Assembly (NCBI GenBank): GCA_025459195.1
Contig: JALORF010000039.1
Coordinates: 1 to 35,767 of the forward strand
Reading direction: 5' to 3'
Origin: Beijerinckiaceae bacterium
GTDB taxonomy: Bacteria > Pseudomonadota > Alphaproteobacteria > Rhizobiales > Beijerinckiaceae
Length of the DNA stretch: 35,767 nt
Both the position numbers and the translations under genes were made by a program. Under the pieces are notes generated by a model. It made no database searches. It was given only the letters and a program-made list of their open reading frames with translations, and was not told the DNA's origin. Positions 6,378-12,879 of the stretch are shown here, one piece after another (positions within the stretch are counted from its first letter, which is position 1; each line of letters begins with the position of its first letter).

Positions 6378-7253
6378 CTAGTCGCCCAGCACCCGTCCGG
6401 CCACCACCTTGAGCTTCGCCAGCAAAGCAGGATCGCGCATGGCGGGCGCGGTCATGATCGCCCCGTCCAGCGCACGGTCCGACTTGACCGGGCAGGCCTC
6501 GTGCTCCTTGGGGAAATCGCGCGCCAGCCGGGCGATCAGCCGCGCCGCATGGGCGGCATTGGCCTTCACCGTGGCAATCACGGCAGCCACGTCGACCATG
6601 TCGTGCTCCGGGTGCCAGCAGTCGAAATCCGTGACCATGGCCACGGTCGCGAAGGTGATCTCGGCCTCGCGTGCCAGCTTGGCCTCAGGCATGTTGGTCA
6701 TGCCAATCACGTCATAGCCGAGCGTCCTGTAGGTCTGCGATTCGGCCAGCGTCGAGAACTGCGGCCCCTCGATGCAGACATAGGTGCCGCCCTTGACGGC
6801 GGCCACACCCTCATCGAGCGCCGCCTGCACCAGCCTGGCCTGCAGCAGCGGGCCGACGGGATGGCCCATCGGGACATGCGCCACGCAGCCCGCGCCGAAG
6901 AACGAGCTTTCGCGCCGGTGCGTCCGGTCGACGAACTGATCGACGAACACGAGCAGCCCCGGATAAAGCTCGGCCTTCAGCGACCCGCAAGCCGAGAGAG
7001 CCACCAGATCGGTGACCCCAAGCTGCTTCATCGCATCGATGTTGGCGCGGTAGTTGATGTCGGACGGCGAATGGCGATGGCCCCGGCCATGGCGGGCGAG
7101 AAACACCACTTCGGTGTCGCCAAGCCGGCCCGTGCGCAAGCGGTCCGATGGCGCGCCCCAGGCTGTGGTCACCTCGTGCTCCGCGGTCACCTCGAGCCCG
7201 GGCAGATCATAGACCCCCGAACCACCCATCACACCCAGAACCGCCTTCACCAT
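6378..7253 (-). CDS. mtnP: S-methyl-5'-thioadenosine phosphorylase
   Basis: A cytosolic 291-residue enzyme that splits methylthioadenosine with phosphate into adenine and methylthioribose-1-phosphate, the first step of methionine salvage and of polyamine by-product clearance. The N-terminus has the phosphate loop GVMGGSGVYDLPGL. RHGRGHRHSPSDINYRANI is the family signature around the active site. VCIEGPQFSTLAESQTYR and GMTNMPEAKLAREAEI carry purine- and ribose-contacting residues of the MTAP branch. The ORF track starts at 7409, but the ATG at 7253 begins exactly at MVKAVLGVMGGSG and has an AAGGCG ribosome site, so it is preferred. It lies 13 bases behind the TVP38-like gene on the same strand and is almost certainly in one operon with it. 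That puts it under the predicted ECF promoter at 8045-8070. Confidence 0.94.
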   Translation of the reverse strand: MVKAVLGVMGGSGVYDLPGLEVTAEHEVTTAWGAPSDRLRTGRLGDTEVVFLARHGRGHRHSPSDINYRANIDAMKQLGVTDLVALSACGSLKAELYPGLLVFVDQFVDRTHRRESSFFGAGCVAHVPMGHPVGPLLQARLVQAALDEGVAAVKGGTYVCIEGPQFSTLAESQTYRTLGYDVIGMTNMPEAKLAREAEITFATVAMVTDFDCWHPEHDMVDVAAVIATVKANAAHAARLIARLARDFPKEHEACPVKSDRALDGAIMTAPAMRDPALLAKLKVVAGRVLGD

Positions 7254-7266
7254 CGCGCCTTGCCCC

Positions 7267-7983
7267 TCAACCGCCGAAACGCTTCTTGAGCGGAATGGCG
7301 GCAAGTGACAAGGCCGCGAGCCCGAACAGTCCCGCCAGAATTTCGGGCGTGAGGATCGAGCTGATCTGGAATTCGCCGCCCCGGTCAAGCACGCTGCCAA
7401 GGCCGGCACCGGCCGTGGTGAACACCGCTGTCCCCGGAATGATGCCGAACAGCGTGGTCAGCACGAACACGGGCAACCTGACGCCGACAAAGGCCGGCAC
7501 CAGATTGACCAGGAAGAAAGGAAACAGGGGCGCAAGACGCAGCACCAGCAGATAGGACCAGGCATTGGCTTTGATGTTGGCCCCCAGCCGCGTGGCCTTC
7601 TCGCCGAAACGCGCCAGCACATCGCCGCCAAACAGCGTCCGCGCGAAGAGGAAGACCAGCGTTGCCCCGATGGTTGCACCCGTCACGTTCAGTGCCGTGC
7701 CAAGCCAGGGCCCGAACAGGAAACCGCCGGCCAGTGTCAGGATCACGGCCCCGGGCAGCGACAGGCTCACCGAGGCGGCATAGGCCAGCACGAACAGCGC
7801 AGCCGCCAGCGCGCCATGCTGCGACACAAGCCCCGTCAGCGTGGCCCGGTGGGTGCGCAACGTCTCCAGGCTGAGCAGGCTGCCGAAGCCGAGTGCATGC
7901 AACGCAGCGACCGCAGCGACAAGACCAAGCACGATCCAGAGCCGTTTGTCGGAGAAAAAGGCCATGGCTGCGAATTCCGTCAT
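7267..7983 (-). CDS. TVP38/TMEM64 (DedA-like SNARE-associated) family membrane protein
   Basis: A 238-residue polytopic inner membrane protein. A first helix (LWIVLGLVAAVAALHAL) is followed by the family core: FVLAYAASVSLSLPGAVILTLAGGFLFGPWLGTALNVTGATIGATLVFLFAR. A second half contains LLVLRLAPLFPFFLVNLVPAFVGV and FGIIPGTAVFTTAGAGLGSVLD. These are the re-entrant-loop motifs of the VTT/DedA superfamily, whose members are linked to lipid scrambling and membrane homeostasis; the exact role here is unknown. The C-terminus is basic (PLKKRFGG). An alternative start at 7965 (MAFFSDKR) is possible and neither start has a strong ribosome site. It is first in an operon with mtnP and divergent from the ECF sigma gene, from which it may take its promoter. 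Confidence 0.88.
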   Translation of the reverse strand: MTEFAAMAFFSDKRLWIVLGLVAAVAALHALGFGSLLSLETLRTHRATLTGLVSQHGALAAALFVLAYAASVSLSLPGAVILTLAGGFLFGPWLGTALNVTGATIGATLVFLFARTLFGGDVLARFGEKATRLGANIKANAWSYLLVLRLAPLFPFFLVNLVPAFVGVRLPVFVLTTLFGIIPGTAVFTTAGAGLGSVLDRGGEFQISSILTPEILAGLFGLAALSLAAIPLKKRFGG

Positions 7984-8044: not shown

Positions 8045-8070
8045 TTCGCGGGCGTGCGGGCCATTGTTAC
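8045..8070 (-). promoter_or_regulatory. Predicted ECF-type promoter for the TVP38-mtnP operon
   Basis: On the minus strand GTAACA (8070-8065), a 16-base spacer and CGAA (8048-8045) match, letter for letter and in spacing, the element on the plus strand before the sigma gene. From memory this resembles the GTAACC-N16-CGAA element of Caulobacter SigF, whose partner is an NrsF protein. Transcription would start near 8038, leaving a leader of about 55 bases. Confidence 0.55.
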
Positions 8071-8115
8071 AGGCAACACCGCTTTGTGACAGCCCTGAGC
8101 CCATGCCTTCATCAG

Positions 8116-8145
8116 CCGTGTAACATTTGCCCGTGTAACATTTCC
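8116..8145 (+). repeat. 15-bp tandem direct repeat containing the -35 element
   Basis: CCGTGTAACATTTGC (8116-8130) is followed at once by CCGTGTAACATTTCC (8131-8145), 14 of 15 bases identical. Only the second copy has CGAA at the right distance. The first may be an extra sigma contact, a regulator site or a recent duplication. Confidence 0.8.
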
Positions 8146-8160
8146 CGCAGGGCCTACGAA
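8135..8160 (+). promoter_or_regulatory. Predicted autoregulatory ECF promoter of the sigma-nrsF operon
   Basis: GTAACA (8135-8140), 16 bases and CGAA (8157-8160). The start of transcription would fall near 8166-8168, very close to the TTG/GTG start codons at 8176/8179. The message would then be almost leaderless and the AGGAAG at 8162-8167 would be partly or wholly outside it. Confidence 0.55.
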
Positions 8161-8175
8161 CAGGAAGAACAGACC

Positions 8176-8754
8176 TTGGTGCATGATCGCGAGGCAGACT
8201 GGAAACGTCTCCTGCTTGCCGCGCGCTCCGGTGACGAGGCAGCCTATCGCAGGTTCCTGGGTGATGTTGCGCAGCATTTGCGCGGCTGGGCGCAGAGAGG
8301 CCTGACGCGCGCGGGCCGGTCGCCCGCTGAAGCAGAGGATATCGTGCAGGAAACGCTGATCGCCATCCACACGAAGCGGCACACCTGGGATGACGGCCAG
8401 CCGGTCGGCCCTTGGCTGCACGGCGTGGCGCGCCACAAGCTGATCGATGCCCTGCGCAAGCGCACCGGGCACGATCACGTTTCGGTTGATGAACTGGCCG
8501 AGGTGTTGCCCATGGCGGCTTCCGGCTCCGATCTCGCCAGCAGCGATATCCTGAAGATGGTGTCCTCCTTGCCGGAGCGTCAGGCCAGCATCGTCAATGC
8601 CATCTTCGTCGAAGGCCAGCGCGCGGCGGATGTCGCGGCGCGGCTGAACATGAGCGAGGGGGCCGTGCGGGTGGCGCTGCACCGCGCGCTCAAGACCCTC
8701 GCGGCAACCTTCGGAAGCGGTTCCGGAACAGGAGCGGATGATGCGCACGGATGA
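8176..8754 (+). CDS. ECF-type RNA polymerase sigma factor (NrsF-associated, SigF-like)
   Basis: A 192-residue two-domain sigma factor. Region 2 is seen in AYRRFLGDVAQHLRGW, then AEAEDIVQETLIAIHTKRHTWD and PVGPWLHGVARHKLIDALRKR (core binding, -10 recognition). Region 4 is a helix-turn-helix near the C-terminus (LPERQASIVNAIFVEGQRAADVAARLNMSEGAVRVALHRALKTL), which reads the -35 element. The ORF-track start at 7816 is far too early. The family-length start is TTG 8176 or GTG 8179; AGGAAG sits 8 to 11 bases before them. There is no nearby in-frame ATG. The stop overlaps the NrsF-like gene by 17 bases, so the two are translationally coupled. This pairing, plus matching promoters on both strands, indicates a stress sigma factor held by a membrane anti-sigma factor; the signal is probably metal or oxidative stress by analogy with Caulobacter SigF. 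Confidence 0.9.
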   Translation: MVHDREADWKRLLLAARSGDEAAYRRFLGDVAQHLRGWAQRGLTRAGRSPAEAEDIVQETLIAIHTKRHTWDDGQPVGPWLHGVARHKLIDALRKRTGHDHVSVDELAEVLPMAASGSDLASSDILKMVSSLPERQASIVNAIFVEGQRAADVAARLNMSEGAVRVALHRALKTLAATFGSGSGTGADDAHG

Positions 8755-9373
8755 TCTGATCGAGGCGCTTGCGCGGGATCCGGTGCCGGCGCTGCCATCC
8801 GTGCCACGCCTTCTGCTCAGGGCCTTTGCGCTCGGCCTGCCGGTCTCGCTCGTGCTGTTCGCGGCAACTATCGGCGTGCGCAAGGACCTGTTGCCGGCCC
8901 TGGCCGAGGGCTGGTTCGGCATCAAGCTGCTGCTGGTCGGGCTGATCGCGGTCGCGGGCTGGCAATTGACGGGCAGCCGCTCACGGCCGGGCGGCAGCGT
9001 TCCGCTGACGGGTGTGCTGGCGGCAGGCCTGGCCATGCTGACAGCCATTGCACTCGATCTGCGCATCGAGGGTGTGGCGGACTGGTCCGAACGGCTGATC
9101 GGCGACAATGCCGTGAAATGCATGCTGCTGATTCCGCTGCTGTCACTGGCCCCGCTGGCAGGTCTGCTGCATGCCCTGCAAGACGCCGCGCCCGTCAGGC
9201 GCGGAGAGGCCGGTGCGGCGGCAGGCCTTCTGGCCGGTGCGCTCGGTGCGCTGCTCTACGGTCTGCACTGCACCGACGATTCGCCCCTGTTCCTCGGCGT
9301 CTGGTATCTGGCCTCCATCGGGCTGATGATGCTGGTCGGTGCATTCGCGGGCCGCAAGCTGCTGCGCTGGTGA
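8738..9373 (+). CDS. nrsF: NrsF-like (DUF1109) membrane anti-sigma factor
   Basis: A 211-residue integral membrane protein with six predicted helices after a short N-terminal cytoplasmic stretch (TDDLIEALARDPVPAL) of the kind that binds the sigma factor. Helices include LLRAFALGLPVSLVLFAATIGV, IKLLLVGLIAVAGWQL, TGVLAAGLAMLTAIALDL, MLLIPLLSLAPLAGLLHAL, AAGLLAGALGALLYGLHC and YLASIGLMMLVGAFAG. Two cysteines, about residues 128 (AVKCMLL) and 178 (GLHCTDD), are 50 residues apart. From memory this matches the paired cysteines needed for metal sensing in Caulobacter NrsF. A strong AGGAG lies 3 bases before ATG 8738 and 6 bases before ATG 8741, so the second Met may be the real start. It overlaps the sigma gene by 17 bases (14 if 8741 is the start). 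Confidence 0.9.
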   Translation: MMRTDDLIEALARDPVPALPSVPRLLLRAFALGLPVSLVLFAATIGVRKDLLPALAEGWFGIKLLLVGLIAVAGWQLTGSRSRPGGSVPLTGVLAAGLAMLTAIALDLRIEGVADWSERLIGDNAVKCMLLIPLLSLAPLAGLLHALQDAAPVRRGEAGAAAGLLAGALGALLYGLHCTDDSPLFLGVWYLASIGLMMLVGAFAGRKLLRW

Positions 9374-9410: not shown

Positions 9411-12400
9411 TCAGCGGATCGCCCGGACCACGCCCCCGCGCCTGAGCCGCGACAACTGTGCCGCGGCCAGCATCATGGCATCTTCCGCCGGCACGGGCCG
9501 CCCCAGCAGATAGCCCTGCAACTCATGGCAACCGAGCCCGGTCAGCGCTTCAAGCTGGCTCTGCGTCTCGACGCCCTCCGCCGTGATCTGGATGCCCAGC
9601 CGTGTGCCCATGTCGACGATGGCGCGGATGATGGCATCGTTGCGACGGTCGGCAATGCCGCGCACGAAGGAGCGGTCGATCTTGATGCGGTCGAAGCGGT
9701 GACGGTTGAGATAGCTCAGCGATGACCAGCCCGTGCCGAAATCATCGAGGGCCACAGTGACACCGGCACCCTGGAGCTTGTGCAGCACGGTCAGCGCTGT
9801 CTGGTTGTCGTCGAGCAGGACCGATTCCGTCACCTCGATCTCCAGCCGTTCCGGCGCGATCCGGTGACGTGTCAGGGCCCCGCTGACAAGGGCCGCAAAA
9901 TCCGGGTGGCGGAGCTGCACCACCGAGGCATTGATCGCGATGCGGCAGGCCACCGGCCAGGTGGCGGCCTGGCGCAACGCCTCGTCCAGAACCCACGCCC
10001 CGATCGGCACGATCATGCCGGTTTCTTCCGCGATCGGGATGAAATCGGCGGGCGACATCAGCCCGTGCTCGGGATGCCGCCAGCGGATCAGGGCCTCGAA
10101 GCCGGAATGGACCAGCCCCTTGGCCTGATAGACCGGCTGGAAATGCAGTTCGAACTCGCGGTTATCCACCGCCGAGCGCAGGCCGATGTCGATGGTCTGC
10201 CTGAGCCTGACCTGTTCATCGAGCACCAGGCTGTAGCGCCGGTAGGCATTCCGGCCATCGCGCTTGGCCTGATACATGGCGAGATCGGCGCGCCGGATCA
10301 CGGCCTCGGCAGAGGTCTCGGCGGCCTCCGGTGCGGCCACGCCGATGCTGGCGCCGACATTGGCGATCTGCCCGCTGGCCAGCATGATCGGATGATTGAC
10401 ACTGGCGATGATCTGCACGGCAAGCTGCTCGCAGCGCGTGCCGGCGCGGCCCTCCGCTGCCAGAATGATGAACTCATCACCCCCGATGCGGGCCAGCACG
10501 TCTTCCTCGCCGATGATGCGGCGCAGGCGAGCGGCCACCTCGCACACCACCTCGTCGCCCGCCGCATGGCCATGGCTGTCATTGACGGCCTTGAAGCGAT
10601 CCAGATCGACATAGATGACGGAATGGGTGCCTGCACTGTCCTGTGAAAGCCGCATCTGGACGATCTCGCAGAAGGCCCGGCGGTTCGGCAGCCCGGTCAG
10701 GGCGTCGGACCGCGCCTGCCGTTCCAGCGCCGCCTGCGAGGTGACGCGCTCGGTCACATCTGCCACCATGCCTTCGACATAGATCGGCTCGCCGTTGTCG
10801 TCGCGCACCAGCCAGGCGGTTTCGGAAATCCAGATGGTCTGTTCCGAACGCAAGGTGCGCACTTCCGACACGAAGTCGGTGATCAGCCCGTCGCGGAGCA
10901 GAAGTTCGTGCCGTTCCTGCTGGCGGCGGGGATCGACACGCCAGTTCGCGTTGCCGGCATTGTTGGCATCCAGAAGCGCCTGTTCGCTGGCATAGCCGCG
11001 CATGGCCACCAGAGCCGGATTGGCCCGGACAAGGTGCCCATCCAGGGTCTTGCGGTAGATGCCGACGATGCTGTGGTCGAACAGTTTGCGGTAGTCGGCC
11101 TCCAGCGAGGTGCGCTCGGTCACGTCGCGGATGTTGGCGACGATGTGCGGCTCGGCTCCGGGAACATCGACCAGCGAGAATGCGCCCTCGACCCAGATGT
11201 AGCTGCCATCCTTGCGCTTCAGCCGATGCACGATCAATGTCTGCGGCGTCGCGGCAGAAAGCTGCGACGTGGCCTTGTAGAGCGGACCCAGATCCTCCGG
11301 ATGCACCCATTCGCGCATCGGGACGGCAAGTGCCTCATCCGGCGTGTAGCCGGTCAGCTTCAACACGGCCGGCGAGAAATAGCTGCGTCGCCCGTCATTG
11401 TGGCCGAGAATGATGACGTCGCTGCTGTTGTCGGCCAGCAGCCGGAACCGGGCCTCGCTGTCGCGCGTCTTCTGTTCGGCCTCGACCGCCTCGGTGATGT
11501 CGAAGGCAATCGACACGAAGGCGATGATCTCACCATCGTCATTGCGCTGCGGCACCACGGTCTCGTCGAGCCAGTAGTAGCTGCCGGACTTGGTGCGGTT
11601 GCAGATGCGGGAGCGCCAGGTATGCCCGGCGCTCAACGTCTCCCGGATACTGCGGAAGAAGGCAGGCGGGTGCTTGTCGGAATCGAGAAGATCGCCGACA
11701 TCCCGGCCCAGAGCCTCCTGGCGCGCATAGCCTGTGGTCTGGCAGAACAGGTCGTTCACGAACAGCAACGTGCCGGACGGATCGACGACATTGACGATGG
11801 AATGCTCGTCGAGCGCGGCCTTGTAGGCCCCCAGTTCCGACAGCACGCTGCGGGCATGGGCCAGCGCATCGCGCAATTGCTGGGTCAGCTCCTCGCGCCG
11901 GGTGACATCGCGCGCCGTGCCGCGATAGCCCCTGAACCGGCCCGCCCCGTCGAAGACCGGACGTCCGCTGACCTCGATCCACATGTCGCCACCAACACGG
12001 TCGGCTGTCTGGTAGACAAAGTTGGTGATCGCCTCGTGGCGCTCAAGGCTCTCCTTGTGCGCTTTCCAGACCGGATCGCGCTCGACATCGGCGCCGGCAA
12101 AGCCCCAGCGTGTGAAACCAATCGGAGCACGCATCACAGACTGCTGGGGCATGTGCCAGTGCGTGAACACGAAGCTCTCGTCCTGCTCCCAGATCCAGTC
12201 CGAGGAGGAATCCAGAAAATCCTGGAGCCGCGCGCGTTCCTGATCGAGTTCCGCGCGGGTGGCGATCAGCCCGGTCTGGTCGATCGAGATGCCGACTGCC
12301 CCGTTTCCACCCGCTCCGATGGCGAGTGGCCTGATGAATGTCTCCACACTGCGTGTCTCGCCGTCCTGCTGAAGCACATCGACGTAACGCACGTCTTCGC

Positions 12401-12722
12401 CGGCCAGCGCCCTGGCATGGGCAGAGCGCCAGACATCGCTGACCTCGTCACTGCAATCCTGCGCCGACTGGTCCAGCAGCGCTCCAAACAGCGCACGATC
12501 ATGGGCATTCTGGAAGATGTAGCGGCCATCGGGACCGATGATGAAGATCGAATGCGGCAGGGCATCGACCGCCGCCGCAAGCAAGCCGGTGCCAGGCCCT
12601 TGTCCGGCAGCCGCTTTGGCGGACGGCACGCCGGCGCCATCCTTGCTCACCGAAGACAGGGCCTCGGCTGGCGCGTCGGCAGCACAAGCTGCGCTGGTGT
12701 CGTCAAGGGGCGTCGGGCGCAT
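9411..12722 (-). CDS. Five-PAS GGDEF-EAL protein (putative dual diguanylate cyclase / c-di-GMP phosphodiesterase)
   Basis: A 1103-residue signalling protein with no predicted membrane helix. Five PAS/PAC units run about residues 48-155, 168-285, 305-420, 425-540 and 545-662. Each ends with a PAC-like strand such as GYRGTARDVTRRE, FVSIAFDITEAV, IVANIRDVTERT or YVEGMVADVTERV. The GGDEF domain (about 670-835) has SDALTGLPNRRAF and an intact RIGGDEF signature. The inhibitory RxxD site is absent (GEED at that place). The EAL domain (about 850-1095) keeps EALIRWRHP, the Asn of AINAS, EVTES, DDFGTG, IKIDRSFV, AEGVET and LQGYLLGRP, so the phosphodiesterase residues are complete. Both activities are possible. 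ATG 12722 (MRPTPLDDTS) is preferred to the upstream TTG 12728. It is a single gene divergent from the RluA-family gene. Confidence 0.92.
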   Translation of the reverse strand: MRPTPLDDTSAACAADAPAEALSSVSKDGAGVPSAKAAAGQGPGTGLLAAAVDALPHSIFIIGPDGRYIFQNAHDRALFGALLDQSAQDCSDEVSDVWRSAHARALAGEDVRYVDVLQQDGETRSVETFIRPLAIGAGGNGAVGISIDQTGLIATRAELDQERARLQDFLDSSSDWIWEQDESFVFTHWHMPQQSVMRAPIGFTRWGFAGADVERDPVWKAHKESLERHEAITNFVYQTADRVGGDMWIEVSGRPVFDGAGRFRGYRGTARDVTRREELTQQLRDALAHARSVLSELGAYKAALDEHSIVNVVDPSGTLLFVNDLFCQTTGYARQEALGRDVGDLLDSDKHPPAFFRSIRETLSAGHTWRSRICNRTKSGSYYWLDETVVPQRNDDGEIIAFVSIAFDITEAVEAEQKTRDSEARFRLLADNSSDVIILGHNDGRRSYFSPAVLKLTGYTPDEALAVPMREWVHPEDLGPLYKATSQLSAATPQTLIVHRLKRKDGSYIWVEGAFSLVDVPGAEPHIVANIRDVTERTSLEADYRKLFDHSIVGIYRKTLDGHLVRANPALVAMRGYASEQALLDANNAGNANWRVDPRRQQERHELLLRDGLITDFVSEVRTLRSEQTIWISETAWLVRDDNGEPIYVEGMVADVTERVTSQAALERQARSDALTGLPNRRAFCEIVQMRLSQDSAGTHSVIYVDLDRFKAVNDSHGHAAGDEVVCEVAARLRRIIGEEDVLARIGGDEFIILAAEGRAGTRCEQLAVQIIASVNHPIMLASGQIANVGASIGVAAPEAAETSAEAVIRRADLAMYQAKRDGRNAYRRYSLVLDEQVRLRQTIDIGLRSAVDNREFELHFQPVYQAKGLVHSGFEALIRWRHPEHGLMSPADFIPIAEETGMIVPIGAWVLDEALRQAATWPVACRIAINASVVQLRHPDFAALVSGALTRHRIAPERLEIEVTESVLLDDNQTALTVLHKLQGAGVTVALDDFGTGWSSLSYLNRHRFDRIKIDRSFVRGIADRRNDAIIRAIVDMGTRLGIQITAEGVETQSQLEALTGLGCHELQGYLLGRPVPAEDAMMLAAAQLSRLRRGGVVRAIR

Positions 12723-12879
12723 GCGCAAAATCCAAACAGACCGGCACAGAATTGCGCAGCGTGGTTAAGGATCCCTCTCTTGACCGGCTCATGGGAACGA
12801 TTTGCCGCAGCAATGGTTGCATGCAGCCAGCCCGCCATGGCATGGCCACCCGATGCCATCGCCCCTTGCCCCCGACACC

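Follow-up and report, generated by a model that had tools for sequence, protein, structure and literature searches.

Two SigF-type promoter elements between an ECF16 sigma factor-nrsF pair and a divergent tvp38-mtnP pair in a Beijerinckiaceae bacterium: a predicted auto-promoter and a lineage-restricted candidate target promoter

The question raised by this locus is whether one ECF sigma factor serves both its own gene and a pair of genes transcribed away from it, and which function such a regulon would have. The stretch of DNA analysed, referred to as the window, is 35,767 nt long and represents contig JALORF010000039.1 of the Beijerinckiaceae bacterium assembly GCA_025459195.1. The original prediction had joined the sigma-nrsF pair and a TVP38-mtnP operon into one regulon on the basis of two GTAACA-N16-CGAA elements. 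Both elements are indeed present, the plus element GTAACATTTCCCGCAGGGCCTACGAA at 8135-8160(+) and the minus element GTAACAATGGCCCGCACGCCCGCGAA at 8070-8045(-), each with a spacer of exactly 16 bases, and they face outward, toward sigma-nrsF and tvp38-mtnP, respectively.

The sigma gene (8179..8754, plus strand) has a GTG start and codes for a 191-aa ECF sigma factor of the SigF/ECF16 type, with the Sigma70_r2 and Sigma70_r4_2 domains (PF04542 and PF08281, both above cut-off) and a match to NF009165 of 223 bits vs the cut-off of 198. Directly downstream, overlapping its 3' end, lies the gene for the 211-aa anti-sigma factor NrsF (DUF1109/NrsF family; 8738..9373, plus strand; PF06532, E=3.5e-47, 161 bits), a protein presumably having the six transmembrane segments expected from its Pfam family. 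It contains exactly two cysteines, Cys128 in the motif NAVKCML and Cys178 in LHCTDD, which correspond to the functional pairs C131/C181 in the Caulobacter NrsF (PMC3511200) and C129/C179 in both OsrA (PMC3420878) and AbcS (PMC8315932). The window NrsF scores 95.2 bits against the narrow NCBIfam Caulobacter-type equivalog NF042994, below its cut-off of 300, and is a member of the Pfam family outside that equivalog. The profile matches together with the two cysteines bear out the identification of an ECF sigma-NrsF pair. By the features tested, all of them read from the sequence, the system is a member of ECF16, and an ordinary one of a known switch type.

On the opposite strand, tvp38 (7267..7983) codes for a TVP38/VTT membrane protein of the DedA superfamily (VTT domain PF09335, E=6.4e-20, 72.3 bits vs the cut-off of 33.9). 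Its real start is likely the ATG at 7965, since the upstream one at 7983 has no counterpart in the alignment with two sibling genomes (G344, locus L065, and G345, locus L066), whose locus genes share 84-96% protein identity with those of the window and stand in the same order. The mtnP gene, coding for S-methyl-5'-thioadenosine phosphorylase (6378..7253, minus strand; NF006492, 488.5 bits vs 437; TIGR01694, 280.6 vs 274.85), follows 13 nt behind tvp38, and the two probably form one operon. The neighbour convergent with nrsF, at 9411-12728(-), codes for a large PAS-GGDEF-EAL protein and is the same in both siblings.

How unusual the two elements are depends on the scale considered. They are the sole matches to GTAACM-N16-CGAA in the window, and 100 dinucleotide shuffles gave 0 matches. 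The search of the whole genome proposed in the original prediction returned four such matches (seven for GTAACN-N16-CGAA), and the reversed control pattern was commoner (10 and 19, respectively), so that there is no genome-wide enrichment of the motif. The weight of the elements rests on the position of the sites, not on their genome-wide frequency: what stands out is that two copies lie about 65 bases from each other and that each points at a gene start, and chance does not account for this divergent pair. Their SigF-like character is upheld by a matrix whose training set, made up of sigF promoters from other genomes, excluded the window and its siblings. It gives 23.8 bits to the minus element and 19.4 to the plus element, against a training median of 21.1 and 10.9 bits for the third-best site in the window; since the training sites were picked by the GTAAC..CGW pattern, the matrix favours that pattern. 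A score of 19 was reached nowhere in 274,872 background strand-positions, and when the divergent region was shuffled 20,000 times, 23.7 was never reached on the minus strand.

The plus element, with the -35 box GTAACA at 8135..8140 and the -10 box CGAA at 8157..8160, is the more readily interpreted of the two. A GTAAC-N15..17-CGW site is found within 400 nt upstream in 62 of 64 related sigma loci; 55 of these sites have the N16 spacer, and all 55 end the -10 box in A, even though this base was left free in the search. The distance between CGAA and the GTG at 8179 gives a leader of 18 nt, short as in other ECF16 loci, and the boxes are kept exactly in both siblings. Auto-regulation via such a promoter is the norm described for ECF16 sigma genes, and the plus element may be taken as the auto-promoter of sigma-nrsF, an assignment settled short of experiment. 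In the distant NrsF group of the same genus (L204-L218) such a site is mostly absent before the sigma gene; four of these loci (L204, L205, L208, and L212), devoid of a CGAA-type site at that place, carry TGTAACC-N16-CGAT on the opposite strand. It is worth adding that a 15-bp near-tandem repeat at 8119..8148(+), with the units CGTGTAACATTTGCC and CGTGTAACATTTCCC, supplies a spare GTAACA box upstream of the sigma -35; the alignment shows a single copy in G344 and a degenerate repeat in G345.

The minus element (-35 GTAACA at 8065..8070, -10 CGAA at 8045..8048, minus strand) requires more caution. The siblings keep TGTAACA-N16-GCGA with the spacing of the window, amid varying neighbouring bases, and their final -10 base is G or T, not A (CGAG/CGAT), which leaves them at 13.7 bits. 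Five further members of the genus (G229, G378, G379, G381, and G383) and the outgroup G065 have tvp38 divergent from sigF and an intact sigF element, and no recognisable tvp38 element. The TVP38 proteins of the five are 73-80% identical; spacers of 14, 15, 17, and 18 before their tvp38 genes likewise revealed no site, and the upstream region in G229 offers only a degenerate match of 9.5 bits. The minus element is confined to the window genome and, weakened, to its two siblings, and it is strong in the window genome only. Loss of an element in close relatives that keep the gene order had been named at the outset as evidence against the regulon; it is largely what was found, for the minus element alone and with the siblings retaining most of it.

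This distribution invites the reading that the plus element alone represents a genuine sigma promoter and that the minus one is a fortuitous match, with tvp38-mtnP relying on an ordinary housekeeping promoter. It would fit the absence of the element from the five genus members and the outgroup, as well as the siblings' departure from the invariant last -10 base and the freely variable stretch just downstream of the -10 core. Against it, the score of the minus element exceeds the median for true sigF promoters and was not reached in the shuffles, and the element is right in strand, spacing, and distance; moreover, the siblings hold its conserved parts while the bases beside it change, and homologous TVP38 operons of other genomes have SigF-type sites upstream (see below). 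We regard a fortuitous match as unlikely, and consider it probable, judging from the sequence comparisons, that the ECF16 switch drives both its own promoter and a divergent tvp38-mtnP promoter. A further possibility, compatible with this explanation at the level of mechanism, is that the minus element is functional but marks a recent lineage-specific capture of tvp38, or a decaying remnant, devoid of a conserved physiological role. Its restriction to the window and, in weakened form, the siblings speaks for such a capture, whereas a shared physiological reason is more likely given that TVP38 operons of other genera, and of a second family, repeatedly have SigF-type sites in front of them; we hold this second alternative to be conceivable, though doubtful.

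The recurrence itself is as follows. A MerA-like-TVP38 operon with a SigF-type promoter of its own, 31-42 nt upstream, occurs in seven NrsF-bearing genomes of two families: three assigned to the window's genus in the genome collection used (G255, G385, and G355), three of another genus (G262, G311, and G282), and one of another family (G101). In the last one, a separate contig carries nrsF, and the CGTA -10 box of the promoter matches that of its own sigF promoter. Homologous operons or clusters in six genomes in which NrsF was not found (G337, G324, and the rSAM-TVP38-type clusters of G139, G073, and G030, as well as G089) have no SigF-type site. In G019 and G132, which also bear NrsF, no site faces the MerA-like-TVP38 operon, and the genomes compared are related, so that these trials are not fully independent. 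The TVP38 proteins of the operons and of the window form one clade (100/100 support), with the divergent arrangement as one sub-clade within it (95/96). In the same loci SigF-type sites stand also before genes for DUF547, radical SAM, TIGR04283-like glycosyltransferase, and metallophosphoesterase proteins. With these genomes taken into account, the predicted link of the sigma factor to TVP38 is supported, with the sites at TVP38 operons elsewhere as evidence separate from the window; the original prediction as a whole holds in part, the narrow conservation of the minus element counting against it.

A candidate ECF16-controlled cluster was seen around or apart from sigF-nrsF in several loci (L101, 2512-12554; L102-L104, L228-L230, L220, and L221). 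An assignment of the related loci to arsenosugar biosynthesis was rejected, L101 scoring 59 bits vs 300 for the ArsS radical SAM profile TIGR04167 and 136 vs 182 for TIGR04283; TIGR04282 in L104 is just over its cut-off (134.4 vs 134). For the window genome the same assignment was discarded as well, TIGR04282 being absent. On balance, we lean toward the view that, in Hyphomicrobiales, a TVP38-centred module tied to envelope thiol/oxidant stress is under the control of ECF16/NrsF sigma factors, and that the window would hold a reduced TVP38-MtnP version of it. The module so understood consists of a MerA-like disulfide oxidoreductase and TVP38, the latter a COG0398-like DedA protein, together with the DUF547, radical SAM, TIGR04283-like glycosyltransferase, and metallophosphoesterase proteins.

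The second gene of the putative target operon raises the question whether methylthioadenosine/methionine salvage is the point of the regulon, with mtnP as the selected target. This could explain its position behind tvp38 in the window, both siblings, G381, and G383, as well as its place immediately after nrsF in G262, G311, and G282; mtnP has thus come into ECF16-linked operons in two layouts. In the latter three, of another genus (L104, 4997-5863; L102, 10443-11312; L103, 10916-11779), a sigF-nrsF operon extending to mtnP is probable. Yet mtnP is near-universal, being present in 187 of 199 family genomes, most of which (G229 among them) have it unlinked, and no SigF-type site directly preceding any mtnP was seen, which renders the salvage reading improbable. 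Methylthioadenosine salvage, the regulated function first proposed, is likewise weak, the 13-nt distance between the two genes being its sole basis. MtnP is probably an operon passenger or else clears MTA/5'-deoxyadenosine, the clearing role being a guess.

Other regulon candidates of the window genome point elsewhere. A SigF-type site precedes a periplasmic thioredoxin-DsbD_TM gene pair (contig C84 of the genome; L139, 2983-4314) and is kept in both siblings, and this pair probably belongs to the regulon. This favours envelope thiol/oxidant repair over lipid homeostasis as such. A SigF-like site was also noted before a gene for an acetolactate synthase-like TPP enzyme, with a gene for an OpgC-like acyltransferase behind it (L138, 7430-10352; contig C69). 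Its boxes are kept in the siblings, where an A before GTAAC lowers the score to 10.4 bits, and it is only a candidate member. A site before trxB (contig C243), kept in G344, was rejected, as it falls within an open reading frame, and the encoded protein sequence accounts for its being kept. Membrane-lipid homeostasis, the other function originally proposed, had been deduced from the family name, and is not sustained by the known and conserved ECF16 targets, which indicate oxidant/thiol and metal stress instead.

The preferred explanation, a switch acting on both promoters, can be sketched by analogy with the characterized systems. The membrane protein NrsF, which carries the two signature cysteines, would hold the sigma factor until, as judged from Caulobacter, Bradyrhizobium, and Brucella, stress by an oxidant or a thiol-reactive metal acts on NrsF and sets the sigma factor free; the freed sigma factor would direct RNA polymerase to TGTAACR-N16-CGAA promoters, the one at 8135-8160(+) driving sigma-nrsF and that at 8070-8045(-) driving tvp38-mtnP. 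Promoter activity, sigma dependence, and the signal are all predicted here from sequence. TVP38 may act as a lipid scramblase with thiol redox partners, and the regulon as a whole likely serves the response to envelope thiol/oxidant stress.

The ECF16 prototype is SigF-NrsF of Caulobacter crescentus, with GTAACC-N16-CGAA promoters including that of sigF itself (PMC3511200). It shares with the window the sigma-NrsF operon, the two NrsF cysteines, and the promoter type. Under metal stress its sigF shows only weak auto-regulation; its targets differ, being DUF2282/DUF692/DUF2063/DoxX and YedY genes, and TVP38 or mtnP are not reported among them (PMC3511200). The divergent layout seen in the window is experimentally known from BcrS-AbcS of Brucella melitensis, where divergent, near-identical GTAAC..CGAA promoters with mapped start sites lie between the sigma gene and the target operon, bcrXQP; that target, a methionine-rich peptide/MsrPQ-like operon conferring hypochlorite resistance, is a different one (PMC8315932). 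A divergent layout with two elements has been reported for Sinorhizobium rpoE7, too (PMC6180224), so the divergent auto/target promoter pair itself is already known. EcfF-OsrA of Bradyrhizobium japonicum is likewise an auto-regulated ECF16 pair, but with a spacer of 14-15, a CG(t/a) -10 box, and targets centred on methionine sulfoxide reductases (PMC3420878). Its experimentally supported targets include bll1027-1026, a periplasmic thioredoxin and DsbD-like pair of the same type as the thioredoxin-DsbD target predicted in the window genome (PMC3420878).

TVP38 as an ECF16 target has not been described before, as far as the literature search reached, and it recurs in other genomes; mtnP and the MerA-like genes are likewise without description as such targets in the literature searched. 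No link of ECF16/NrsF with TVP38, MerA-like, or radical SAM proteins was found there, an absence of little weight in a search that took in few subscription papers. Within the DedA superfamily, the COG0398 subfamily (TVP38/TMEM64-like) is associated with, and known to be fused to, pyridine nucleotide-disulfide oxidoreductase domains, and a search of the text of that study returned no mention of sigma-factor control (PMC10127716). The pairing of TVP38 with an oxidoreductase in the MerA-like-TVP38 operons agrees with this, and the window protein, which has the VTT domain, is a putative COG0398-like member.

Taken by itself, the window yields a modest gain, its second promoter being lineage-restricted. 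If the broader reading is true, ECF16 regulons would extend beyond bufferins and methionine sulfoxide repair. We know of no physiological role assigned to the COG0398 DedA/TVP38 subfamily in bacteria, and a stress sigma factor along with disulfide-reductase partners would provide both a condition and a genetic handle for the function of TVP38.
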